Assembly: GCF_014595885.1 (NCBI RefSeq) | Contig: NZ_JABUKC010000002.1 | Span: 434,001 to 498,000 of the forward strand | Length of the DNA stretch: 64,000 nt | Direction of reading: 5' to 3' | Source of the DNA: Microcella alkalica | GTDB lineage: Bacteria; Actinomycetota; Actinomycetes; Actinomycetales; Microbacteriaceae | Shown here: positions 7,262-48,633 of the stretch, piece after piece | Layout of the letters: each line of letters begins with the position of its first letter | How positions within the stretch are numbered: the first letter of the stretch is position 1 | Program-made: the position numbers and the translations under genes | Notes under the pieces: model-generated | What the model saw: only the letters and a program-made list of their open reading frames with translations | What the model was told of the DNA's origin: nothing | Databases searched by the model: none

Positions 7262-8470
7262 GTGACCGCGGTCGCGAGCGCCGATCGGCGCCTCACGATC
7301 GTCGTCGGCATCACCGGCGGCATCGCCGCCTACAAGGCCGTCGGCGTGGCGCGGGCGCTCGTGCTCGCCGGCCACGACGTGCACGTCGTCGCGACCGAGG
7401 GCGCGCTGCGCTTCGTCGGCCGCCCGACGCTGGAGGCGATCAGTCGCAACCCGGTGCACACCAACCTCTACGAGGGCGTCGCCGAGGTGCGCCACGTGGC
7501 CCTCGGGCAGCGCGCCGACCTTATCGTCATCGCCCCCGCGACGGCGCACACGATCGCGTCGCTCGCGGCCGGTCTCGCTGGCGACCTGCTCGGCACGACC
7601 GTCCTCGCCTCCCGCGCCCCGCTCGTCATCGCGCCCGCGATGCACACCGAGATGTGGGAGAACGCGGCCACGCAGGCCAACATCGCGACCCTCCGCTCGC
7701 GCGGGGTCACGATCGTCGGCCCCGGCTCGGGGCAGCTCACCGGCAGCGATTCCGGGGCGGGCCGCATGAGCGAGCCCGACGAGATCGTGGCGGTGGCCGT
7801 CGCCGCGGCGGGCCCGCGCGATCTGGCCGGGCGCAGCATCCTCATCTCGGCCGGCGGCACGCGCGAGCCGCTCGACCCGGTGCGCTTCCTCGGCAACCGC
7901 TCGAGCGGGCGCCAGGGCGTCGCGCTCGCGCGGGCCGCGGTCGCTCGGGGCGCTCGCGTGACGCTCGTCGCCGCCCACCTCGAGGTGGAGCCGCCGCACG
8001 GCGTCGCCGTCGAGCACGTGGGCACCACCGACGAGCTGCTGGCGACGATGCGCCGACTCGCGCCCGAGCACGACACCGTCATCATGGCTGCCGCGGTCGC
8101 CGACTTCCGTCCCCGCGAGGTCGCCGAGGGCAAGCTCAAGAAGGAGGCCGTCGGCGAGACGCTGACCCTCGAGCTCGAGCGCACGCCCGACGTGCTCGCG
8201 ACACTCGCCGCCGAGCGCGCTCCCGGCCAGCGCATCGTCGGCTTCGCCGCCGAGACCGAGGCGGATGCCGAGGCCCTGCGGGCCCTCGGGGCGGCGAAGG
8301 TCGCCCGGAAGGGCGCCGACTACCTCGTGGTGAACCGCGTGGGCTGGAGCGAGGGCTTCGGCACCCCGACCAACGACGTCATGATCCTCGACGCGACCGG
8401 TAGCGTCGTCTCCACAGCCTCGGGCGACAAGCTGTCGGTGGCCGATCGTATCCTCGACGCGCTCGCCTGA
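7262..8470 (+). CDS. coaBC: phosphopantothenoylcysteine decarboxylase / synthetase
   Basis: The 402-residue bifunctional enzyme makes 4'-phosphopantetheine for coenzyme A. The N-terminal CoaC flavoprotein domain (1-185) has [11 protein letters not shown], the His-containing [19 protein letters not shown] and [10 protein letters not shown]. The C-terminal CoaB domain has [21 protein letters not shown] and AAAVADFRP. The whole protein contains no cysteine: the flap that in E. coli Dfp reads ACGD..GR with a catalytic Cys reads [11 protein letters not shown] here. PAMH also replaces the common PAMN. Both look like actinobacterial family traits rather than damage. The start is GTG, 10 bases after rpoZ. 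Confidence 0.95.
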
Positions 8471-34129: not shown

Positions 34130-34151
34130 TGTCGGAGCGCCCCGTTAGGCT
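34130..34151 (+). promoter_or_regulatory. PafBC-type DNA-damage promoter of polA
   Basis: TGTCGGAG (34130-34137) is followed after exactly 8 bases by TAGGCT (34146-34151), and the polA GTG follows 6 bases later. This fits the RecA-independent damage-inducible promoter described in mycobacteria (TTGTCRGTG-N8-TANNNT) and predicts a leaderless mRNA. The same layout recurs at uvrB and uvrA. The function is inferred from motif similarity. Confidence 0.6.
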
Positions 34152-34157
34152 GGCCCC

Positions 34158-36821
34158 GTGACGGACTCCGGAAAGCCTACTCTGCTCATCGTCGACGGCC
34201 ATTCGCTGGCCTTCCGGGCGTTCTACGCCCTGCCGATCGACAGCTTCGTCACGCACGACGGTCAGCACACGAACGCCATCCACGGCTTCATCTCGATGTT
34301 CTTGGGGCTGCTGGCGAAGGAGAAGCCGACGCACGTCGCGGTCGCCTTCGACATCTCGCGGTTCTCGTTCCGCACGCGCGAGTACGCCGAGTACAAGGGC
34401 ACGCGCGGGGAGACCCCGCCCGAGTTCGTCGGGCAGGTGCCGCTGCTGCAGGAGGCCCTCGCGGCGATGAACGTCACGACCATCACGAAGGAGGACTTCG
34501 AGGCCGACGACATCCTCGCGACGCTCGCTCGCCAGGGCGCCGAGCAGGGCTTCGACGTGCTCGTCGTCTCCGGCGACCGCGACACGATCCAGCTCGTCAA
34601 CGACCGCGTGACCCTGCTCTACCCGAACGCGCGCGGCGTGAGCGAACTCAAGCGCTACGACGCCGAGGCGGTGCGCGAGCGCTACGGCATCGATCCGCAC
34701 CAGTACCCGGAGATCGCGGCGCTCGTCGGCGAGACGAGCGACAACCTGCCGGGCATCGACAAGGTCGGCGAGAAGACCGCCGTGAAGTGGATCACCCAGT
34801 ACGGCTCGCTCGAGAACCTGCTGGCCCACGCCGACGAGATCGGGGGAGTGGTCGGGGCGAACCTGCGCGAGCAGCGCGAGCGCGCGGAGCGCAACCGCCG
34901 CCTCAACCGCCTCGTCGACGACGTCGAGCTGCCGGTGGGGCCGACCGATCTGGAGCGTCGACCGATGGACGTCGGCGCGGTGAAGCGCGTGTTCGAGCGC
35001 CTGCAGTTCCGCACCCTCACCGAGCGGGTGCTGAAGATCGCCGCCGCCGAGGGCGCCGACATGAGCGGTGAGGGCGAGGCGCCGACCGCCGCCGCCGATG
35101 CGCCCCCCGTGCGCACCCTCGTCGACGAAGAGCTGGCAGCGTGGCTGCGCGCCGCCGTCGCGACCGGCGAGCCGATCGCCCTCGTGGTGGATGCCCCGCT
35201 CGGTTCGCTCGAGGGCTTCGGCCTCGCCGCCGGCACCGACACGGTGCACGTGAACTGGGCCGCGGGCCGCCCCGACTACGTCGCGCTCGAGCAGTGGCTC
35301 GCGGGCGGCGATCCCAAGCTCGTCGTCGACGGCAAGCGGGCCACGAGCATCCTCGCCGCCCAGGGCCTGCCGCTCGCGGGCGTGGTGTGGGATGCCTCGC
35401 TCGCCGCCTGGCTCGAGCGCCCGGGGTCGAGCACGCAGTCGCTCGCCGAGCTCGTGGGCAGCATCCTCGGCGAGAGCCTGCCCGAGCCCGACCCGAACCA
35501 GCTCGTGCCCGACACCGCGGCGCTGTCGCCCGCGACCGGTGCCTGGTACCTCGCCCGCATCGTCGCCGCGCAGCGTGAGCGCCTCGCCCCGCCCACGCAG
35601 TCGGTGCTCACGAGCATCGAGCTGCGCGTCACCCCCGTCATCGCCGAGATGGAGCGCACGGGCATCGCGGTCGACCGCGGCCAGCTCACGAGCCTCAACG
35701 CCGAGCTCGGCGAGACCGCCGCCGGGCTCGCCGAGCAGGCCTATGCCGAGATCGGCCGCGAGGTGAACCTCGGCTCGCCCAAGCAGCTGCAGCAGGTGCT
35801 GTTCGACGAGCTCGGCATGCCGAAGACCCGAGCGACGAAGACGGGGTACTCGACCGACGCCGCGGCCCTCGCCGACCTGCAGGAGGCGCATCCGCACCCG
35901 TTCCTCGGCCTGCTGCTGCAGCACCGCGACGCGACGAAGCTGCGGCAGATGGTCGAGACGCTCGAGAAGGCGACGGGCGCTGACGGGCGCATCCACACGA
36001 CGTACGACCAGACCGGCACGACGACGGGCCGCATCTCGTCGACCGACCCCAACCTGCAGAACATCCCCGTCCGCACCGAGGTCGGCCACCGCATCCGCGC
36101 CGCCTTCGTCGCCGGCGAGGGGTACGAGGGGCTGCTCACGGCCGACTACTCGCAGATTGAGATGCGCATCATGGCGCACCTCTCCGGCGACGCGGGGCTC
36201 ATCGAGGCCTTCACCTCGGGAGAAGACCTGCACCGCTTCGTCGGCGCCCGCATCTTCGGCGTCGCGCCCGCCGACGTCACCCCCGAGATGCGCACGAAGG
36301 TCAAGGCGATGAGCTACGGCCTCGCCTACGGGCTGAGCGCCTTCGGCCTGTCGAAGCAGCTGCGCATCTCCAGCGCCGAGGCCAAGCAGCTCATGACCGA
36401 CTACTTCGCGCGCTTCGGCGCCGTGCGCGACTACCTGCGCTCGGTCGTCGCCCAAGCGAAGGAGGACGGCTACACCGAGACGATCTTCGGGCGCCGTCGC
36501 CCCTTCGCCGACCTCAACTCGCCTAACCGCGTGCTGCGCGAGAACGCCGAGCGCGCGGCGCTCAACGCGCCCATCCAGGGCACGGCGGCCGACATCATGA
36601 AGCTCGCGATGATCGGCGTCGCCGACGACCTGCGCGAGCAAGGCCTCGCCTCGCGCATGCTCCTGCAGGTGCACGACGAGCTCGTGTTCGAGGTGGCGCC
36701 CGGCGAGCGCGAGCGACTCGAGGCGATCGTGCGGGCCCGCATGGGCTCGGCCGCCGAGCTCGCCGTGCCGCTCGAGGTGCAGGTGGGCACGGGCCCGAAC
36801 TGGGATGCCGCCGCGCACTAG
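34158..36821 (+). CDS. polA: DNA polymerase I, proofreading domain degenerate
   Basis: The 887-residue repair and Okazaki-fragment polymerase has three parts. The N-terminal 5' nuclease (1-300) has LLIVDGHSLAFRAFYALP, EADDILATLA and the helix-hairpin-helix GIDKVGEKTAVKWI. The 3'-5' exonuclease-like domain (about 320-500) has lost its catalytic acids (VVDAPLG in place of FDTE-type, KLVVDGKR), so no proofreading is expected. The polymerase domain has motif A DYSQIEMRI (Asp663), the O-helix KVKAMSYGLAYG and motif C VHDE (Asp840). Exonuclease loss is common in actinobacterial PolA. The TAG stop is also the first half of the next promoter hexamer. Confidence 0.97.
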   Translation: MTDSGKPTLLIVDGHSLAFRAFYALPIDSFVTHDGQHTNAIHGFISMFLGLLAKEKPTHVAVAFDISRFSFRTREYAEYKGTRGETPPEFVGQVPLLQEALAAMNVTTITKEDFEADDILATLARQGAEQGFDVLVVSGDRDTIQLVNDRVTLLYPNARGVSELKRYDAEAVRERYGIDPHQYPEIAALVGETSDNLPGIDKVGEKTAVKWITQYGSLENLLAHADEIGGVVGANLREQRERAERNRRLNRLVDDVELPVGPTDLERRPMDVGAVKRVFERLQFRTLTERVLKIAAAEGADMSGEGEAPTAAADAPPVRTLVDEELAAWLRAAVATGEPIALVVDAPLGSLEGFGLAAGTDTVHVNWAAGRPDYVALEQWLAGGDPKLVVDGKRATSILAAQGLPLAGVVWDASLAAWLERPGSSTQSLAELVGSILGESLPEPDPNQLVPDTAALSPATGAWYLARIVAAQRERLAPPTQSVLTSIELRVTPVIAEMERTGIAVDRGQLTSLNAELGETAAGLAEQAYAEIGREVNLGSPKQLQQVLFDELGMPKTRATKTGYSTDAAALADLQEAHPHPFLGLLLQHRDATKLRQMVETLEKATGADGRIHTTYDQTGTTTGRISSTDPNLQNIPVRTEVGHRIRAAFVAGEGYEGLLTADYSQIEMRIMAHLSGDAGLIEAFTSGEDLHRFVGARIFGVAPADVTPEMRTKVKAMSYGLAYGLSAFGLSKQLRISSAEAKQLMTDYFARFGAVRDYLRSVVAQAKEDGYTETIFGRRRPFADLNSPNRVLRENAERAALNAPIQGTAADIMKLAMIGVADDLREQGLASRMLLQVHDELVFEVAPGERERLEAIVRARMGSAAELAVPLEVQVGTGPNWDAAAH

Positions 36822-36824
36822 GCT
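36819..36824 (+). promoter_or_regulatory. TAGGCT -10 element overlapping the polA stop
   Basis: TAGGCT begins with the polA stop codon and ends 7 bases before the ATG of the DUF885 gene, predicting a leaderless mRNA. No ribosome binding site is visible there, which agrees. Confidence 0.55.
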
Positions 36825-36831
36825 CGCCTGC

Positions 36832-38496
36832 ATGACTGACAACGCCGCCAGCCGCCAGCCCACCGAGGTCGACACGATCGCCGAGGAGTGGGTCGCCACC
36901 CTGGTCTCCCTGAGCCCCGAGCTCGCCACCTACATCGGTGCCGACGGGAAGCTCGACGAGTACCAGGACTACTCGCCCGCCGGGCGCGAGCGCTCGCTCG
37001 CCGCGAGCCGCGAGATGCTCGCGAAGCTCGAGGCCGCCACCCCCGTCGACGACACCGACCGGGTCACGATCGCCGACATGTCGGCGGAGATCCGGCTCGA
37101 GCTCGAGCTCGCGGAGGCGGGGTGGGATGCGCGCGACCTCAACGTGCTCGCCTCACCCGCGCAGGGCATCCGCGAGATCTACGACCTCATGCCGACCGCG
37201 ACGGAGGCCGACTGGGAGATCATCGCCCGCAAGCTGACTCGCGTCGGCGAGGCGCTCGAGGGCTACGCCGAGACCCTCCGCGAGGGCGTCGCGAAGGGCA
37301 ACCCGCCCGCCATCCGCCAGGTGCGCGAGGTGCTCACGCAGGTGCGCACGAACGCCGCCCGTGACGGCTTCTTCGCCGAGTTCACCGGCGCCGCCGAGGT
37401 GCCCGAGAGCCTCAAGAAGCAGCTCGCCGACGCCGCCGAGCAGGCCGCCGACGCCTACGGCCGCTTCGGCGACTTCCTCGAGCACGAGCTCGCTCCCGCC
37501 GCGCGCGAGGAGGACGCGGTCGGGCGCGAGCTGTACTCGCTGCTCTCCCGCAAGTTCCTCGGGGCCACGATCGACCTCGACGAGACCTACGAGTGGGGCA
37601 TCGAGGAGCTCCGCCGCATGGTGGAGGAGCAGACCCGCATCGCGAACGAGATCCTGCCCGGCGCGAGCGTCGAGGAGGCCATCGCCCACCTCGAGCAGGA
37701 CGAGTCGCGCAAGCTGCACGGCCGCGATGAGCTGCAGCGCTGGATGCAGCAGCTCAGCGACACCGCGGTGGAGGAGCTCTCGCGCACTCACTTCGAGATC
37801 CCCGAGCCGGTCAAGGCGCTCGAGTGCATGATCGCCCCGACGCCCGGCGGCGCCATCTACTACACGGGCCCCACCGACGACTTCTCGCGGCCGGGCCGCA
37901 TGTGGTGGTCGATCCCGGAGGGCGTCGACTCGTTCGACACCTGGCGCGAGACGACCACGGTCTACCACGAGGGCGTTCCCGGCCACCACCTGCAGATCGG
38001 GCAGGCCGTCTACAACCGCGCGCAGCTCAACTCGTGGCGTCGACTGCTCGCCGGCACGAGCGGTCACGCCGAGGGCTGGGCCCTCTACGCCGAGCGCCTC
38101 ATGGAGGAGCTCGGCTACCTCGACGACCCGGCCGACCGCCTCGGCATGCTCGACGGCCAGCGCATGCGCGCCGCCCGTGTCGTGCTCGACATCGGCGTGC
38201 ACCTGGGCAAGATCCACCCCGAGACCGGCGAGGTCTGGACGAGCGAGGACGCCTTCGCGTTCATGCGGAGGAACGTCAACATGAACGACGGCTTCGTGCA
38301 GTTCGAGGTCAATCGCTACCTCGGCTGGCCGGGTCAGGCGCCCTCGTACAAGGTCGGCCAGCGCATCTGGGAGCAGATCCGCGACGAGGTGAAGGCCCGC
38401 GAGGGGGCGGCGTTCTCGAACAAGGCGTTCCACAAGCGCGCGCTCGACCTCGGCGGCGTCGGGCTCGACACGCTGAAGTCGGCGCTGCTGGGCTGA
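36832..38496 (+). CDS. DUF885 family predicted metallopeptidase
   Basis: This 554-residue soluble protein lacks a signal peptide. The DUF885 signature YHEGVPGHHLQIGQ gives His379, Glu380 and the GHH at 384-386, similar to the HExxH zinc site of metallopeptidases. GHAEGWALYAERLMEELGY and the C-terminal YLGWPGQAPSYKVGQ are also family hallmarks. Proteins of this family are suspected carboxypeptidase-like enzymes, but the substrate is unknown. The ATG at 36832 is chosen because TAGGCT lies 7 bases upstream; an earlier ATG at 36805 would lie within polA. Confidence 0.88.
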   Translation: MTDNAASRQPTEVDTIAEEWVATLVSLSPELATYIGADGKLDEYQDYSPAGRERSLAASREMLAKLEAATPVDDTDRVTIADMSAEIRLELELAEAGWDARDLNVLASPAQGIREIYDLMPTATEADWEIIARKLTRVGEALEGYAETLREGVAKGNPPAIRQVREVLTQVRTNAARDGFFAEFTGAAEVPESLKKQLADAAEQAADAYGRFGDFLEHELAPAAREEDAVGRELYSLLSRKFLGATIDLDETYEWGIEELRRMVEEQTRIANEILPGASVEEAIAHLEQDESRKLHGRDELQRWMQQLSDTAVEELSRTHFEIPEPVKALECMIAPTPGGAIYYTGPTDDFSRPGRMWWSIPEGVDSFDTWRETTTVYHEGVPGHHLQIGQAVYNRAQLNSWRRLLAGTSGHAEGWALYAERLMEELGYLDDPADRLGMLDGQRMRAARVVLDIGVHLGKIHPETGEVWTSEDAFAFMRRNVNMNDGFVQFEVNRYLGWPGQAPSYKVGQRIWEQIRDEVKAREGAAFSNKAFHKRALDLGGVGLDTLKSALLG

Positions 38497-38532
38497 GTCG
38501 CCGCGCGCACCGGCGCCGAGCATCCGCTCACC

Positions 38533-38570
38533 GCTGCGGCCCCGTCGTTCACGATCGGCGGGGCCGCAGC
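38533..38570 (+). terminator. 12-bp hairpin after the DUF885 gene
   Basis: GCTGCGGCCCCG (38533-38544) pairs perfectly with CGGGGCCGCAGC (38559-38570) around a 14-base loop. There is no T-run. It lies 37 bases after the stop codon and just before the rpsA promoter, so it probably insulates the two genes. Confidence 0.65.
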
Positions 38571-38585
38571 CGTGCGGTCGCGTGT

Positions 38586-38614
38586 TTGCCGGAGGAGTGG
38601 CGGAACGATAGGGT
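38586..38614 (+). promoter_or_regulatory. vegetative promoter of rpsA
   Basis: TTGCCG (38586-38591) and TAGGGT (38609-38614) are separated by 17 bases, the best -35/-10 pair in the window. Transcription from about 38621 would give rpsA a leader of roughly 100 bases, room for autoregulation by S1, as is known in other bacteria. Confidence 0.6.
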
Positions 38615-38719
38615 GGAGGGTCGCCATTCTGGCGTCGTTCTGTCCGTTCGCCCGGACGACATCTTCCAGCATCACGTCGCACCGGGCCCGATCCATGTCC
38701 GCATCGGAGCAACCACTAC

Positions 38720-40162
38720 ATGACCACCGTAACGACCAAGGCCCCCAAGCAGATCGCCATCAACGACATCGGCTCTGCTGAAGACTTCCTGGCCGCGGTC
38801 GAGCAGACCCTGAAGTTCTTCAACGACGGCGACCTCATCGAGGGCACCGTGGTGAAGATCGACCGCGACGAGGTCCTCCTCGACGTCGGCTACAAGACCG
38901 AGGGCGTCATCCCCTCGCGCGAGCTCTCCATCAAGCACGACGTCGACCCCGCAGAGGTTGTCTCGGTCGGCGACACCGTCGAGGCGCTCGTCCTCCAGAA
39001 GGAGGACAAGGAGGGTCGCCTCATCCTGTCGAAGAAGCGCGCCCAGTACGAGCGCGCCTGGGGCGACGTGGAGAAGATCAAGGAGGCCGACGGTGTCGTG
39101 ACCGGTCAGGTCATCGAGGTCGTCAAGGGCGGCCTGATCGTCGACATCGGCCTCCGCGGCTTCCTCCCCGCCTCGCTCATCGAGCTGCGCCGCGTGCGCG
39201 ACCTCACGCCGTACCTCGGCCAGGAGCTCGAGGCGAAGATCCTCGAGCTCGACAAGAACCGCAACAACGTGGTGCTCTCGCGCCGTGCGCTGCTCGAGCA
39301 GACGCAGTCGGAGAGCCGCACGACGTTCCTCAACAACCTCGCCAAGGGCCAGGTGCGCAAGGGCGTCGTGTCGTCGATCGTCAACTTCGGCGCGTTCGTC
39401 GACCTCGGCGGCGTGGACGGCCTCGTGCACGTCTCCGAGCTGTCGTGGAAGCACATCGAGCACGCCAGCGAGGTCGTCGAGGTCGGCCAGGAGGTCACCG
39501 TCGAGATCCTCGAGGTCGACCTCGAGCGCGAGCGCGTGTCGCTGTCGCTCAAGGCGACGCAGGAGGACCCGTGGCAGGTCTTCGCCCGCACGCACGCGAT
39601 CGGTCAGGTCGCGCCGGGCAAGGTCACCAAGCTCGTCCCCTTCGGTGCGTTCGTCCGCGTCGCCGACGGCATCGAGGGCCTCGTGCACATCTCGGAGCTG
39701 TCGGGCAAGCACGTCGAACTCGCCGAGCAGATCGTGTCGGTCGGCGACGAGGTGTTCGTCAAGGTCATCGACATCGACCTCGACCGTCGCCGCATCTCGC
39801 TGAGCCTCAAGCAGGCCAACGAGGGCGTCGACCCCGAGGGCACCGAGTTCGACCCCGCCGTGTACGGCATGCCGACCGAGTACGACGAGGCCGGCAACTA
39901 CAAGTACCCCGAGGGCTTCGACCCGGAGTCGGGCGAGTGGAAGGAAGGCTTCGAGGAGCAGCGCGCGAAGTGGGAGCAGGACTACGCTGCCGCCCAGTCG
40001 CGCTGGGAGGCTCACAAGAAGCAGGTCGCCGCGGCTCTCGCCGAGGAGGCCACCCTCGACCTCCCCGGTGGCTCGAGCTTCACCTCGGAGTCGAGCACGG
40101 GCGGCACCCTCGCCGACGACGAGTCGCTCGCCGCGCTGCGCGAGAAGCTCGCCGGCAACTGA
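38720..40162 (+). CDS. rpsA: 30S ribosomal protein S1
   Basis: The 480-residue protein has four S1 RNA-binding domains at about 35-105, 120-190, 205-280 and 290-370 (e.g. GLIVDIGLRGFLP and VNFGAFVDLGGVDGLVHVSELSW). An acidic, Trp- and Glu-rich tail follows. This is the usual actinobacterial four-domain form, two fewer than in E. coli. S1 helps recruit structured or leadered mRNAs to the 30S subunit. It stands alone, with a promoter before and a strong terminator after. Confidence 0.97.
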   Translation: MTTVTTKAPKQIAINDIGSAEDFLAAVEQTLKFFNDGDLIEGTVVKIDRDEVLLDVGYKTEGVIPSRELSIKHDVDPAEVVSVGDTVEALVLQKEDKEGRLILSKKRAQYERAWGDVEKIKEADGVVTGQVIEVVKGGLIVDIGLRGFLPASLIELRRVRDLTPYLGQELEAKILELDKNRNNVVLSRRALLEQTQSESRTTFLNNLAKGQVRKGVVSSIVNFGAFVDLGGVDGLVHVSELSWKHIEHASEVVEVGQEVTVEILEVDLERERVSLSLKATQEDPWQVFARTHAIGQVAPGKVTKLVPFGAFVRVADGIEGLVHISELSGKHVELAEQIVSVGDEVFVKVIDIDLDRRRISLSLKQANEGVDPEGTEFDPAVYGMPTEYDEAGNYKYPEGFDPESGEWKEGFEEQRAKWEQDYAAAQSRWEAHKKQVAAALAEEATLDLPGGSSFTSESSTGGTLADDESLAALREKLAGN

Positions 40163-40180
40163 CGCCAGCAGGTTCGTGAG

Positions 40181-40210
40181 CGGGCCGTCCTCCTTCGGGA
40201 GGGCGGCCCG
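40181..40210 (+). terminator. intrinsic terminator of rpsA
   Basis: CGGGCCGTCCTCC (40181-40193) pairs with GGAGGGCGGCCCG (40198-40210), one G-T wobble, around a TTCG tetraloop, and is followed by TTCCGCGTTCTC. It lies between the convergent rpsA and DUF4126 genes. Confidence 0.85.
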
Positions 40211-40261
40211 TTCCGCGTTCTCGGCTCCCCTCCGCATCGCGCCGACGGGGGATGCCCGGCT

Positions 40262-40858
40262 TCAGCGCTGCTCGACGGAGAGCCGGCGCCGCCGCGCTCG
40301 GGCGAGCAGCACCGGCAGGGCGATGACTAGGCCGAGCAGCGCCACGACCACGAGCACGGGCACGACGATCGCGAGGATGCTGAATCCGACCGCGCCGATG
40401 TCCTCCACGGTCGACAGCACGGGTGCCGCGGCGCCCCCCGTGAGCGCGTTCGCGGCCGGTCGCGCCGCCATCTTGAGGCCGTGCACGACGAGCGCGATGA
40501 CGACGCCCGCGGCGATCGGCACCCACTGCTGCGAGGCGAGGAAGGCCTCGGGGTCGGTCACGGCGACGGTCTGCGCACCGCTTCCGGAGCCGAAGACGAT
40601 GCCGCCAGCGGCGGGGCGCACGATCGTCTGCAGCCAGTCGTTGATCGAGTCGACGGCGGGGATCTTGTCCGCGACCACCTCGATCACGAGCAGCACGGCG
40701 AGGATGCCCAGCACCCACTCGTTCTCCAGCCACGCCCAGCCCGCGGGCAGCTGCACGACGTCGGTGAACCGCCCGGCGAGCCCGAGCAGCAGCAGCGGGA
40801 TGTACGCGTTGAGCCCGGCCGCGACGGCGAGACCGGTGCCGGTGAGGGCTTCGAGCAC
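40262..40858 (-). CDS. DUF4126 family membrane protein
   Basis: This 198-residue protein has about five membrane segments. The family-typical opening is GTGLAVAAGLNAYIPLLLLGL, with a conserved middle around DKIPAVDSINDWLQTIVRPAAGG. The function is unknown. The GTG start is firmly placed by a perfect AGGAGG five bases upstream on that strand. It is convergent with rpsA and divergent from coaE. Confidence 0.85.
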   Translation of the reverse strand: MLEALTGTGLAVAAGLNAYIPLLLLGLAGRFTDVVQLPAGWAWLENEWVLGILAVLLVIEVVADKIPAVDSINDWLQTIVRPAAGGIVFGSGSGAQTVAVTDPEAFLASQQWVPIAAGVVIALVVHGLKMAARPAANALTGGAAAPVLSTVEDIGAVGFSILAIVVPVLVVVALLGLVIALPVLLARARRRRLSVEQR

Positions 40859-40885
40859 GGTGGCCTCCTGGTCGACTGTGCGGTC

Positions 40886-40891
40886 ATGGTA
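40886..40891 (-). promoter_or_regulatory. candidate -10 element for the DUF4126 gene
   Basis: On the complementary strand TACCAT (40891 to 40886) fits TANNNT and would start an mRNA with a leader of about 21 bases that includes the AGGAGG ribosome binding site. Confidence 0.4.
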
Positions 40892-40919
40892 CTCGCCGCT
40901 CGGGCGCCCGTCACCGGGC

Positions 40920-40925
40920 TAGGGT
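40920..40925 (+). promoter_or_regulatory. candidate -10 element for coaE
   Basis: TAGGGT ends exactly six bases before the coaE GTG, predicting a leaderless mRNA. Unlike polA, uvrB and uvrA it lacks the TGTCGG box 8 bases upstream. Confidence 0.6.
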
Positions 40926-40931
40926 CGAGGG

Positions 40932-41552
40932 GTGGAGGTCATCGGACTCACGGGCGGCATCGCCGCCGGCAAGTCGGCGGTCGCGGCGCGGCTCGCCGAG
41001 CACGGGGCAGTCGTCATCGACGCCGATCAGCTGGCGCGCGAGGCGGTCGAGCCGGGCAGCCCGGGGCTCGCAGCGGTCGTCGATCGCTTCGGCGAGGGGA
41101 TGCTCGCCCCCGACGGTTCCCTCGATCGCGCGCGGCTTGGCGCGCTGATCTTCGGCGACGAGCAGGCGCGGCTCGCGCTCAACGCGATCGTGCACCCGGA
41201 GGTCCGGCGGCTGTACCGCGAGCACGTCGAGGCGGCCTTCGCGGCGAACCCCGACGCGATCGTCGTCTACGACGTCCCGCTGCTCGCCGAGGCCAGGGCC
41301 GCCGACGAGTTCGCGCTCATCGTGGTCGTCGACGCTCCGCCGGAGGTGCGGCTCGAGCGTCTGGTGAGCCTGCGCGGCCTGCCGCGCGAGCAGGCCGAGG
41401 CGCGCATCCGCTCCCAGGCCCCCGACGAGGAGCGTCGGGCGATGGCCGATGTCGTGATCGACGCAGGCGGCACCCTCGAGCACACCCTGGAGCAGGTCGA
41501 CGCGCTGTGGGAGCGCCTGGTCGCCCAGCGCGCTGTCGGAGGTCGCTCCTAG
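40932..41552 (+). CDS. coaE: dephospho-CoA kinase
   Basis: The 206-residue P-loop kinase phosphorylates dephospho-CoA, the last step of CoA synthesis. The Walker A motif is GGIAAGKSAVAARL (residues 7-20); VVIDADQLAREAVEPG and VYDVPLLAEARA are also conserved. It lacks the C-terminal GrpB-like extension found in mycobacterial CoaE. The GTG start follows TAGGGT by six bases, and the TAG stop is part of the uvrB promoter hexamer. Confidence 0.95.
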   Translation: MEVIGLTGGIAAGKSAVAARLAEHGAVVIDADQLAREAVEPGSPGLAAVVDRFGEGMLAPDGSLDRARLGALIFGDEQARLALNAIVHPEVRRLYREHVEAAFAANPDAIVVYDVPLLAEARAADEFALIVVVDAPPEVRLERLVSLRGLPREQAEARIRSQAPDEERRAMADVVIDAGGTLEHTLEQVDALWERLVAQRAVGGRS

Positions 41553-41555
41553 GCT
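41534..41555 (+). promoter_or_regulatory. PafBC-type DNA-damage promoter of uvrB
   Basis: TGTCGGAG (41534-41541), 8 bases, then TAGGCT (41550-41555) and the uvrB ATG 6 bases later: the same box, spacing and start distance as at polA. The motif lies in the last codons of coaE and its TAG is the coaE stop. GGGAGG touches the ATG, too close to act as a normal ribosome binding site, so a leaderless mRNA is likely. Confidence 0.6.
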
Positions 41556-41561
41556 GGGAGG

Positions 41562-43634
41562 ATGCAGCCCACGAGGTCCGTCCGCCCCTTCGAGGTCGTC
41601 AGCGAGTACCAGCCGAGCGGCGACCAGCCGCAGGCGATCGCCGAGCTCGCGGCCCGCATCAACGCCGGCGAGACCGACGTCGTGCTGCTCGGCGCGACGG
41701 GCACCGGCAAATCGGCGACGACCGCGTGGCTCATCGAGCAGGTGCAGCGCCCGACGCTCGTGCTCGCGCACAACAAGACGCTCGCCGCCCAGCTCGCGAC
41801 GGAGTTCCGCGAGCTGCTGCCGCACAACGCGGTGGAGTACTTCGTCTCGTACTACGACTACTACCAACCCGAGGCCTACGTGCCGCAGACCGACACCTTC
41901 ATCGAGAAAGACAGCTCGGTCAACGCCGAGGTCGAGCGGCTGCGGCACTCGACGACGAACTCGCTGCTGAGCCGCCGCGACGTCGTCGTGGTCTCGACGG
42001 TCTCGTGCATCTACGGCCTCGGTGCGGCAGAGGAGTACCTCGACGCGATGGTCGCCCTCCAGGTGGGCGAGCGCATCTCGCGGGATGCCCTCATCCGCCG
42101 CTTCGTCGGCATGCAGTACCAGCGCAACGACATCGACTTCTCGCGCGGCAAGTTCCGCGTGCGCGGCGACACGATCGAGATCATCCCGATGTACGAAGAG
42201 CTGGCGATCCGCATCGAGATGTTCGGCGACGAGATCGAGGCGCTCTACGCGCTGCATCCGCTCACGGGCGACGTCATGAAGACGCTCGACGCCGTGTCGG
42301 TCTTCCCGGCAACGCACTACGCGGCCTCGCCTGACACGATGCAGCGCGCGATCGTGACCATCAAGGAGGAGCTCGAGCTGCGCCTGGCCGAGCTCGAGCG
42401 GCAGGGCAAGCTCCTGGAGGCGCAGCGCCTGCGCATGCGCACGACGTACGACATCGAGATGATGGAGCAGATCGGGTTCTGCAACGGCATCGAGAACTAC
42501 TCCCGTCACATCGACGGGCGCGCCCCGGGCGAGCCGCCGAATTGCCTGCTCGACTACTTCCCGGAGGATTTCCTCGTCGTCATCGACGAGAGTCACGTCA
42601 CGGTGCCGCAGATCGGCGCGATGTACGAGGGCGACGCGAGTCGCAAGCGCACGCTCGTCGAGCACGGCTTCCGGCTGCCGAGCGCGCTCGACAACCGTCC
42701 GCTGCGGTGGGAGGAGTTCCTGGAGCGCACGGGTCAGAAGGTCTACCTCTCGGCCACCCCCGGCAAGTACGAGCTCGGCATCACCGACTCGGTGGTCGAG
42801 CAGATCATCCGCCCGACGGGCCTCGTCGACCCGGAGATCGTCGTGAAGCCCAGCGCGGGCCAGATCGACGACCTCCTCGAGCAGATCCGGCTGCGCGTCG
42901 AGCGCGACGAGCGCGTGCTCGTCACGACGCTCACGAAGAAGATGGCGGAGGAGCTCACCGACTTCCTCACCGAGGCCGGCGTGCGGGTGCGCTACCTGCA
43001 CTCGGACGTCGACACGCTGCGCCGCGTCGAGCTGCTGAGCGAGCTGCGGCAGGGCGTCTACGACGTGCTCGTCGGCATCAATCTCCTGCGCGAGGGGCTC
43101 GACCTGCCGGAGGTGTCGCTCGTGGCGATCCTCGACGCCGACAAGGAGGGGTTCCTGCGCTCGGCGACGTCGCTCATCCAGACGATCGGTCGTGCCGCGC
43201 GCAACGTGTCGGGCTCGGTGCACATGTACGCCGACGTCGTGACGCCGTCGATGGCGCAGGCGATCGACGAGACCAACCGGCGCCGCGACAAGCAGATCGC
43301 CTACAACGTGGCGCACGGCATCGACCCGACGCCGCTGCGCAAGCGCATCGCGGACATCACCGACCAGCTCGCGCGCGAGGGCGCCGACACCGCGGCGCTG
43401 CTCGCGCAGCGGGGGAGCAGCGCGGGCCGCAAGGCACCGACGCCGCGGGCGCCGCGCGAGGGTCGCGCGGCCGAGGGCGCCGCCGAGCTCGAGGGCATCA
43501 TCGCCGATCTCGACGCCCAGATGCGCACCGCGGCCGCCGAGCTGAAGTTCGAGCTCGCGGCCCGACTCCGCGACGAGGTGCAGGAGCTCAAGAAGGAGCT
43601 GCGCCAGATGGTCGAGGCTGGCCACGTGCGCTGA
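41562..43634 (+). CDS. uvrB: excinuclease ABC subunit B
   Basis: The 690-residue damage-verifying helicase of nucleotide excision repair is complete. Walker A is [15 protein letters not shown], the beta-hairpin region is [21 protein letters not shown], the DEAD-like box is VVIDESHVT, and later helicase motifs include [19 protein letters not shown] and QTIGRAARN. The C-terminal UVR domain (about 645-685) binds UvrC. It forms a cluster with uvrA and uvrC downstream. Confidence 0.98.
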
Positions 43635-43718
43635 CCTATAAGGCAAAGGAGTGAGGCGTTCCCGCATCGTTCCGAGCGGTCGCTCGTCGCACGTCGGCGA
43701 CCTGCGCTCCGGGAGGAA

Positions 43719-43740
43719 TGTCGGGGGCCGCACCTAGAAT
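43719..43740 (+). promoter_or_regulatory. PafBC-type DNA-damage promoter of uvrA
   Basis: TGTCGGGG (43719-43726), 8 bases, then TAGAAT (43735-43740), with a GTG 7 bases later at 43748. This is the third occurrence of the same arrangement, again before an excision-repair gene. It overlaps an in-frame ATG at 43718 that should therefore not be used as start. Confidence 0.55.
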
Positions 43741-43747
43741 GACGCGA

Positions 43748-46633
<2,886 letters not shown>

Positions 46634-46644
46634 TCCGGAGCGCC

Positions 46645-48633
46645 GTGGCGACCGCGAACGAGACGCGCGAGAGCTGGCGCCCCCGGCGGGGCGAGATCCC
46701 CACCGAACCGGGCGTGTACCGCTTCCGCGACGAGCAGGGGCGCGTGCTGTACGTCGGCAAGGCCAAGAACCTGCGCTCGCGGCTGAGCAACTATTTCCAG
46801 CCGCTGCACTCCCTGCACGACCGCACCCGGCGCATGGTGACGACCGCGCGCGGGGTCGAGTGGACGGTCGTCGGCAGCGAGCTCGAGGCGCTGAGCCTGG
46901 AGTACACATGGATCAAAGAGTTCGCCCCGCCCTTCAACGTCAAGTTCCGCGACGACAAGACCTACCCCTACCTCGCCATCACGCTCGGCGACCGCTTCCC
47001 GCGCGTCATGGTGACGCGCACGCGCGGCATCCCCGGCGCGCGGTACTTCGGCCCGTACACGAAGGTCTGGGCGGTGCGCGAGACCGTCGACATCATGCTC
47101 AAGGCTTTCCCGGTGCGCTCGTGCAGCGAGGCGACCTTCAAGCGCGCCCGCGACCGGAAGCGGCCGTGCCTGCTCGGCGACATCGGCAAGTGCGCCGCCC
47201 CGTGCGTCGGCCGCGTGAGCCCGGAGGAGCACAAGTCGCTCGCCCTCGACTTCGCCTCCTTCATGGCCGGCAACGATCAGACCTACGTGCGGCGCCTCCG
47301 CGAGCAGATGGCGGCAGCCGCCGCCGAGCTCGACTACGAGTCCGCCGCGCGGTTCCGCGACCAGATCGGCGCACTTGAGACGGCGCTCTCGAAGAGCGCG
47401 CTCGTGCTCGCCGACGACGTCGACGCCGACGTGTTCGGCATCGCCTACGACGAGCTCGCCGCCGCGGTGCAGCTTTTCATCGTGCGCGGCGGCCGCGTGC
47501 GCGGCGTGCGCGGCTGGGTCGTCGACACCGAGCTCGACGTCACGCTCGCCGAGCTCGTCGACACCGTGCTGCAGAACGCCTACGACGACGCGAGCGAGCC
47601 GCCAGCGCGCGAGATCCTGGTGCCCGCGGTGCCCGACGACGCGGCCGCGCTGCAGACCGTGCTCACCGAGCGGCGACGCGCGGCGGGGGAGCGGGGCGCG
47701 GTCGTCGTCCGCACCGCGCAGCGCGGCGACAAGGCCTCGCTCGCCGAGACCGCGCTCACCAATGCGCAGGGTGCGCTCCAGGTCTACAAGACGCGCCGCA
47801 GCGGCGACTTCACCGCGCGCTCTCAGGCCCTCGCGGACATCCAGGAGGCCCTGGGGCTGCCCGAAGCCCCGCTGCGGCTGGAGTGCTACGACGTCTCGCA
47901 CCTCGGCGGCACGAACCAGGTCGCCTCGATGGTCGTCTTCGAAGATGGCCTGCCGCGCAAGGATCAGTACCGCTCGTTCTCGATCGCGAGCGCGCGCGAC
48001 GACACGGATGCGATCCATCAGGTGCTCACGCGCCGTCTGGCCTACCTGCGGCCCGGCAGCGATCCCGGCGAGGTGCCGGCCGACACGAGCACCGACCCCG
48101 CCTCGCGCGACGCCGCCGCGTCCGACTCGGTCGAGGCCGAGTCGGTCACACCCGGGCAGACCCCGACGGGCACGGCGAAGGCGAAGAAGTCGTTCCACTA
48201 CCGGCCGGGACTGCTCGTCATCGACGGCGGCCAGCCGCAGGTGCAGGCCGCCGCACGCGCCCTCGCCAACGCGGGCATCACCGACATCGCAGTCTGCGGC
48301 ATCGCCAAGCGCCTGGAGGAGATCTGGCTGCCCGACAGCGACTTCCCGGTCATCCTGCCGCGCAGCTCCGACGCCCTGTTCCTCCTCCAGCGGCTGCGCG
48401 ATGAGGCGCACCGCTTCGCGCTCAAGCATCAGCGCACGAAGCGCAAGCAGTCGATCACGACCGAGCTCTCGAGCGTGCCGGGGCTCGGGCCGGCCCGCGT
48501 GCGCGAGCTGCTGTCGCGCTTCGGCTCGGTCGCGCGGCTGCGCGCCGCGAGCCTGGAGGAGCTCATGGCGATCGACGGCATCGGCCGCAAGACCGCCGAG
48601 GCCGTGCAGCAGGCCCTCGCGACCCGCCGGTAG
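46645..48633 (+). CDS. uvrC: excinuclease ABC subunit C
   Basis: The 662-residue dual-incision nuclease has the N-terminal GIY-YIG domain ([26 protein letters not shown] begins near residue 25), a UVR motif ([12 protein letters not shown]), the RNase H-like domain ([20 protein letters not shown] ... [11 protein letters not shown]) and two C-terminal helix-hairpin-helix motifs ([25 protein letters not shown]). An acidic Ala/Ser/Thr/Asp-rich linker of about 45 residues (around 470-515) interrupts the RNase H-like domain. The GTG start is 11 bases after uvrA. The TAG stop is part of a TAGGCT hexamer. Confidence 0.96.

Follow-up and report, generated by a model that had tools for sequence, protein, structure and literature searches.

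This analysis concerns three promoters in a stretch of 64,000 nucleotides (nt) from Microcella alkalica (contig NZ_JABUKC010000002.1, positions 434,001 to 498,000; G000:C2:434001-498000 in our coordinates), which we call the window. The promoters precede the repair genes polA, uvrB and uvrA, and each has the layout of a promoter controlled by PafBC, an activator that responds to DNA damage. All window features given below are on the forward strand (+), and the promoter elements were read directly from the sequence. DNA polymerase I is encoded by polA (34158..36821; NCBIfam models TIGR00593 and NF004397, above cut-off), and its GTG start lies 6 nt after the -10 hexamer TAGGCT (34146..34151), upstream of which is the -26 element TGTCGGAG (34130..34137). 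For uvrB (41562..43634; TIGR00631 above cut-off), the same element TGTCGGAG lies within the 3' end of coaE (41534..41541), and TAGGCT (41550..41555) is again 6 nt before the start, here an ATG. For uvrA (43748..46633; TIGR00630 above cut-off), the element is TGTCGGGG (43719..43726) and the hexamer is TAGAAT (43735..43740), 7 nt before a GTG. The full layouts are thus TGTCGGAG-N8-TAGGCT-N6-start for polA and uvrB and TGTCGGGG-N8-TAGAAT-N7-GTG for uvrA, just as in a preliminary description of this DNA. That description also called the 8-base spacer identical in all three, which is true of its length but not of its sequence. It placed uvrC 11 bases behind uvrA, and a 662-amino-acid open reading frame (ORF) in uvrC's place does start 11 nt after the uvrA stop (46645..48633); we name it by its position and by that description, and it is probably co-transcribed with uvrA.

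The core shared by the three sites, TGTCGG-N10-TANNNT, ends 6-7 nt before each gene and equals the published PafBC motif of Mycobacterium tuberculosis, TGTCGG-10N-TA-3N-T (PMC8151990). The pattern TGTCGGNG-N8-TANNNT occurs four times in the window, compared with a mean of 0.01 expected from 100 dinucleotide shuffles. A "leaderless" start in this context is a start codon 5-8 nt after a TANNNT hexamer. The window has seven leaderless-like starts that open ORFs of at least 150 codons, and TGTC lies 12 nt before TANNNT (spacing 12) in the three repair genes only, with no TGTC at any other spacing from 4 to 25 among the seven. Nor is there a conventional upstream element: at spacings of 15-19, no more than 2/6 bases of a TTGACA-like -35 are matched in the polA, uvrB and uvrA promoters.

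The layout is common to relatives and not private to this genome. For polA, we used the best 80 of 583 relatives, nearly all of whose records we take to belong to Microbacteriaceae genera; the named records closest to polA, among the matches listed, are Microcella alkaliphila and M. pacifica (80-81% identity). The leaderless TANNNT layout is present at all 80 loci. TGTC lies at spacing 12 in 57 of them, and no other spacing between 4 and 25 has it more than once, so 57 of the 60 TGTC matches are in register, and the reverse complement of the box was found in none of the 80 loci. When the in-register columns are counted over all 80 polA -10 hexamers, the box reads T59 G74 T77 C71 G50 G66. The 23 loci without TGTC include those of both Microcella relatives, which nevertheless retain GTCGG in register. 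For uvrB, we used 60 genomes of one family, which we infer to be Microbacteriaceae, and counted 59 (G322 was left out because its best match reached only 6.5e-6). TGTC was found at spacing 12 only, in 45 of the 59, with TGTCRG in 44 and the strict form in 41. The uvrA start could be located in 21 of 30 uvrB loci, though the one in G299 looks misplaced. Of these 21, 11 have TGTC at spacing 12, all of them strict, and another eight have it at spacing 11. A free spacer length can therefore be rejected, given the single spacing at uvrB and the near-exclusive one at polA, with the 11-nt gap at uvrA forming a second class. In all eight uvrA promoters with that gap, the -10 hexamer is TACAAT or TAGAAT.

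We then counted the motif across the whole genome (2.49 Mb in 15 contigs). The pattern TGTCRGNG-N8-TANNNT has 15 matches on both strands, compared with none for the reversed pattern, so the preliminary description's expectation that it would not sit at chance frequency holds. At ten of the 15, an ATG or GTG 5-8 nt after the site opens an ORF of at least 140 codons. The background for such starts, taken from the window and not from the genome, is 4.3% of positions, or 7/48 of the window's TANNNT hexamers (some of the seven being the sites themselves). The ten leaderless targets are polA, uvrB, uvrA, holB, a SprT-like gene, the first gene of an AdnAB-like pair, a TM0106 RecB-like nuclease gene, and genes for GNAT, RibD_C and DrrA-like ABC ATPase proteins. 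By our reading of domains we call the pair AdnAB-like: its proteins (1074 and 1099 amino acids) each have UvrD helicase and PDDEXK nuclease domains, and their reading frames overlap. Other sites lie further from their genes: recA is 118 nt downstream of its PafBC site (i.e., it has a 118-nt leader), the ribonucleotide reductase large subunit gene is 144 nt downstream of a PafBC-like site (G000:C1:460498), metK is 66 nt downstream and an MFS transporter gene 23 nt downstream. The -10 of the ribonucleotide reductase site may resemble half of an NrdR box. By our reading, nine of the 15 sites precede repair, replication or nucleotide genes.

A looser pattern has 19 matches, compared with two in its control. 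The four sites it adds are before dnaX (a box seen in this genome only), before a ResIII/DEAD helicase gene, before a gene for a 200-amino-acid protein without a Pfam match, and at one place without a leaderless start. Base 7 of the box is A in seven of the 15 strict sites, T in four, C in two and G in two. The preliminary description had likened the sites to the PafBC motif with an unusual base at what it took to be the usual T; the core bears out the likeness, and the base in question is simply variable in this genome.

Leaderless promoters in general might carry such a box. In that case, the sites would be constitutive SigA promoters and the TGTC box a general upstream feature of this lineage with no damage switch, an idea that draws on the commonness of TANNNT-N5-8-start layouts. 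In addition, polA would be likely to need a basal promoter, and its box is the loosest of the three. The genes next to the boxed ones provide the comparison. coaE (directly upstream of uvrB) and the DUF885 gene (directly behind polA), both named as in the preliminary description, have no box here, as it had stated. In relatives, TGTC at spacing 12 precedes coaE in 0/23 cases (counted in 23 of the 30 uvrB loci), though 19 of the 23 are leaderless, and the DUF885 gene in 0/58 (counted in 58 of the 80 polA loci), though 52 of the 58 are leaderless. The box therefore tracks repair genes and not leaderless promoters generally, and we reject it as a general leaderless feature on the strength of these two genes and the seven window starts. 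The box-bearing genes of the genome also include recA, the AdnAB-like pair and nuclease genes, and we consider purely constitutive promoters unlikely.

The motif excess extends to the family. Across the 60 genomes we counted 1061 matches to the strict motif and 99 to the reversed pattern; judged by their own controls, 56 genomes are above, two tied and two below. One genome with no PafB match (G310, 0.9 Mb) has four sites and five controls. In a survey of the phylum (296 genomes), each of the 26 members of the class is above its own control. Outside the class the result varies between families; one with PafC matches (f15) has 190 sites compared with 16 controls by hand count.

Both halves of the activator are encoded about 55 kb beyond the window's end, as a pafB-pafC pair (G000:C2:553223-555215) found by phmmer and PF19187 matches. 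PafB matches PafC's partner chain in 7p5x, 9fnd and 9fne at 1e-31 and PafBC 6sj9 at 2e-28; the partner chain is labelled "Transcriptional regulator-like protein" in those entries, and we infer it to be PafB. PafC matches PF19187 at 4e-23 and the PafBC fusion 6sj9 at 8e-33. By our reading, an FKBP-like ORF lies before pafB and a TatC-like ORF behind the pair. The preliminary description had proposed looking for pafBC next to the proteasome genes. The pair is present, but the Pup ligase (pafA) model PF03136 has no match in this genome, while it does match in a Corynebacterium glutamicum control, so no adjacency of pafBC to proteasome genes is demonstrated. Overall, the motif excess and the pafB-pafC pair support the PafBC-type promoter that the description proposed.

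Another activator could still read the box, e.g., ClgR, which had earlier been put forward as the reader of the mycobacterial P1/RecA-NDp motif (the study is discussed in PMC5656591), or a different WYL protein, of which the genome encodes a third at G000:C1:98112. Later structural work places PafBC at this motif (PMC11804915), and in the family a pafC gene lies behind pafB in 29/30 loci. The uvrB box is also tied to PafB: PafB match scores run from 0 to 278 bits in the 12 genomes that have neither the box nor its GTCRG variant and are at least 223 bits in the 47 that have one of them (Mann-Whitney p 2.6e-7), though these ranges overlap and ancestry and genome reduction confound the association. 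Most of the 12 box-less genomes are small or divergent, so ancestry accounts for part of it. We judge a different activator very unlikely.

SOS control needs to be considered because mycobacterial recA, uvrA and uvrC respond to both the LexA and PafBC systems (PMC8223512). Exact SOS boxes, CGAACNNNNGTTCG (CGAAC-N4-GTTCG), occur at nine places in the genome (18 strand matches, compared with two in the control), and none is in the 64-kb window. One of them is 86 nt upstream of the PafBC site of recA, so this gene has both kinds of site. Others precede an ImuA' gene and an Rv2578c-type radical SAM gene, and neither PafBC pattern matches at those two places; from the sequence, repair genes appear to be split between the two systems. 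In relatives, an exact SOS box lies upstream of 0/80 polA and 1/59 uvrB genes, and one-mismatch forms lie upstream of two polA genes and of two more uvrB genes. In the exact case (G346), the uvrB start follows its SOS box at a distance of 50 nt and the PafBC box is missing, which looks like a transfer of control to LexA. A two-mismatch SOS palindrome starts 46 nt before the uvrA box; the genome has 72 such matches compared with 55.6 expected, a count reached in 3/100 shuffles, so they are near chance. With no exact SOS box at the three genes and the two-mismatch match near chance, we reject SOS control of polA, uvrB and uvrA, and damage induction through LexA, with the PafBC-like box secondary, is extremely unlikely.

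The three sites are very probably leaderless PafBC-dependent promoters (RecA-NDp type) that are activated by damage without LexA. Layout, motif excess, conservation, the presence of both proteins and the absence of an exact SOS box are observed; the rest of the proposal is drawn by analogy with mycobacteria. In Mycobacterium smegmatis, PafBC works by sigma adaptation, with the PafB helix-turn-helix on the -26 element and the PafC helix-turn-helix on sigma domain 4 (PMC11804915). By analogy, SigA RNA polymerase would recognise TANNNT, the PafB helix-turn-helix would read TGTCGG some 26 bases before the point where transcription begins, and that of PafC would stand in for the -35 contact that sigma domain 4 lacks here. 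The transcripts would begin at or near the start codon, making the mRNAs leaderless. Single-stranded DNA (ssDNA) generated by damage, or some other ligand, would activate PafBC in its WYL pockets, and active PafBC would then raise PolA, UvrB and UvrA-UvrC together with RecA, the AdnAB-like pair and others, independent of LexA.

Judged by sequence features, the promoters have every RecA-NDp property that we examined: the core, PafB and PafC as a pair, the motif excess and the conserved register. They resemble the Mycobacterium RecA-NDp/PafBC promoters (recA P1) in core, spacing, kinds of target (recA, uvrA, uvrB, AdnAB) and side-by-side PafB and PafC. They differ in ending mostly 6-8 nt before a start codon (10/15 sites), in their free base 7, in having polA as a target, in the lack of a Pup ligase gene found with PF03136 and in changed PafB pocket residues. 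For these last two reasons, we do not file the system with an M. smegmatis-type PafB sensor or with a pafA-linked locus. RecA-NDp promoters of the same motif class have also been reported outside mycobacteria, in Streptomyces and other Actinomycetales (e.g., SCO6735; PMC5087735); the present analysis differs in its count over 60 genomes of a single family and in the comparison with leaderless genes next to the boxed ones. Caulobacter DriD is a WYL-domain damage regulator that binds ssDNA (PMC12340889) but is a homodimer (PMC11804915), whereas PafBC is a heterodimer.

The M. smegmatis PafBC regulon already includes UvrABC (PMC8223512), so only polA adds to the list of targets as far as we searched; it was not met as a PafBC target in the literature searched, though supplementary tables may list it. 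We therefore regard the promoters, as read from sequence, as a real and conserved damage-regulon signature of a known kind, with polA as a new target within that search.

Several findings count against this assignment, besides the confounding of PafB and the box described above. The polA box is the most degenerate, with the full core TGTCRG-N10-TANNNT in just 32/80 relatives and the strict form in 18/80, making polA looser than uvrB. The holB box is kept in just 15 of 59 relatives (G334, with a best match of 2.4e-10, was left out of the 60), so we do not claim holB as a family-wide member despite its core look in this genome. Of the 15 genome sites, five are not followed by a leaderless ORF, and some targets (the GNAT, RibD_C and ABC ATPase genes) have no obvious link to damage. 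Among the comparison genes, TGTC occurs at spacing 11 before one of the 23 coaE genes and at spacing 19 or 24 before three of the 58 DUF885 genes. Outside the class, a family with PafC matches in 15/16 genomes (f9) has only 35 sites to 25 controls, and another with weak PafC matches in 3/23 genomes (f12) has 119 to 104, both by hand count. These counts reject a PF19187 match as a predictor of motif excess across the phylum. The model also matches 5/14 control genomes, three of them above its cut-off. Since a PafC-like match alone brings no motif excess, we used PafB within the family instead. Finally, this genome's own PafB lacks Y196, R204 and R211, residues whose change abolishes ssDNA binding by the mycobacterial protein, singly for Y196A and otherwise in combinations.

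That last point concerns the sensor, and it is the part that a specialist would not expect. In M. smegmatis PafB, ssDNA binding is lost with R211A/R214A together, with Y196A alone, with R181A alone and with R181A/R204A/R208A together; Y196A retains its association with RNA polymerase, and PafC R201A/R204A does not lose ssDNA binding (all PMC11804915). We placed these pocket residues using phmmer alignments, the mycobacterial numbering being our own reading, and aligned the 30 best PafBs of the 59 family genomes with a match and, outside the family, the 26 best-scoring loci. The M. alkalica PafB keeps R181, R208 and R214 and has the changes Y196H, R204A and R211L, so it does not have the M. smegmatis-type sensor set. 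In the 30 family PafBs, position 211 is leucine in all 30, position 196 is tyrosine in one, position 204 is arginine in none, R181 is present in 29 and R214 in 30. Three further family PafBs, read by eye, agree, bringing R211 to leucine in 33/33 aligned, and position 196 is mostly histidine. In other families of the class, Y196, R204, R211 and R214 are kept in 26/26 PafBs (also read by eye). The family's PafC has W-Y-L/V and both FR.DR arginines in 29/29.

With these residues changed, the mycobacterial ligand model cannot simply be transferred, and the promoter assignment is unaffected. Because PafB has lost pocket residues while PafC has kept its arginines, sensing might be mainly via PafC or by another ligand. 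We offer tentatively, as an idea with rather less than an even chance of being right, that the Microbacteriaceae have kept the PafBC regulon and rebuilt its sensor: damage would be sensed mainly via PafC or through a different ligand, and PafB and PafC would have exchanged roles within the heterodimer. In the literature covered, the only WYL proteins named with bound ssDNA are mycobacterial PafBC and Caulobacter DriD. A changed PafB pocket is not mentioned among the listed matches on PafBC and DNA damage, and a search for PafBC and Microbacterium gave none.

If the assignment is correct, excision repair, DNA polymerase I and recombination in a large actinobacterial family would be under one LexA-independent switch, and any genome of the family would reveal that switch by its sequence signature. 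The changed PafB pocket offers an experiment made by nature on damage sensing by WYL regulators. Some relatives have lost the uvrB box, and one of these has an SOS box instead, which suggests that a given repair gene can pass from the control of one system to that of the other.

Some smaller observations concern individual sites. The fourth exact match in the window (8433..8454, +; pattern match) was absent from the preliminary description's list. It lies 66 nt before metK, in the 3' end of a coaBC-resembling ORF and upstream of a priA-resembling ORF; its function is uncertain, and it could be either a genuine site or a coincidence within coding sequence. The strict site at G000:C2:1874-1895 has no ORF of at least 60 amino acids starting within 150 nt, and it is possibly an RNA gene promoter or a chance match. 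An exact palindrome, TGCGAACGAGTGTTCGCA (G000:C3:327646), lies 49 nt before a CoA-transferase-subunit-like gene and is perhaps the site of another regulator rather than of LexA. The genes for the DrrA-like ABC ATPase, RibD_C, GNAT and 200-amino-acid Pfam-less proteins start 6-8 nt after a PafBC-like box, making their products candidates for unknown damage functions. At uvrB, the promoter and the gene before it share their bases: the uvrB box encodes the last residues of the coaE ORF, and the TAG that stops this ORF (41550-41552) doubles as bases 1-3 of the uvrB -10 hexamer.

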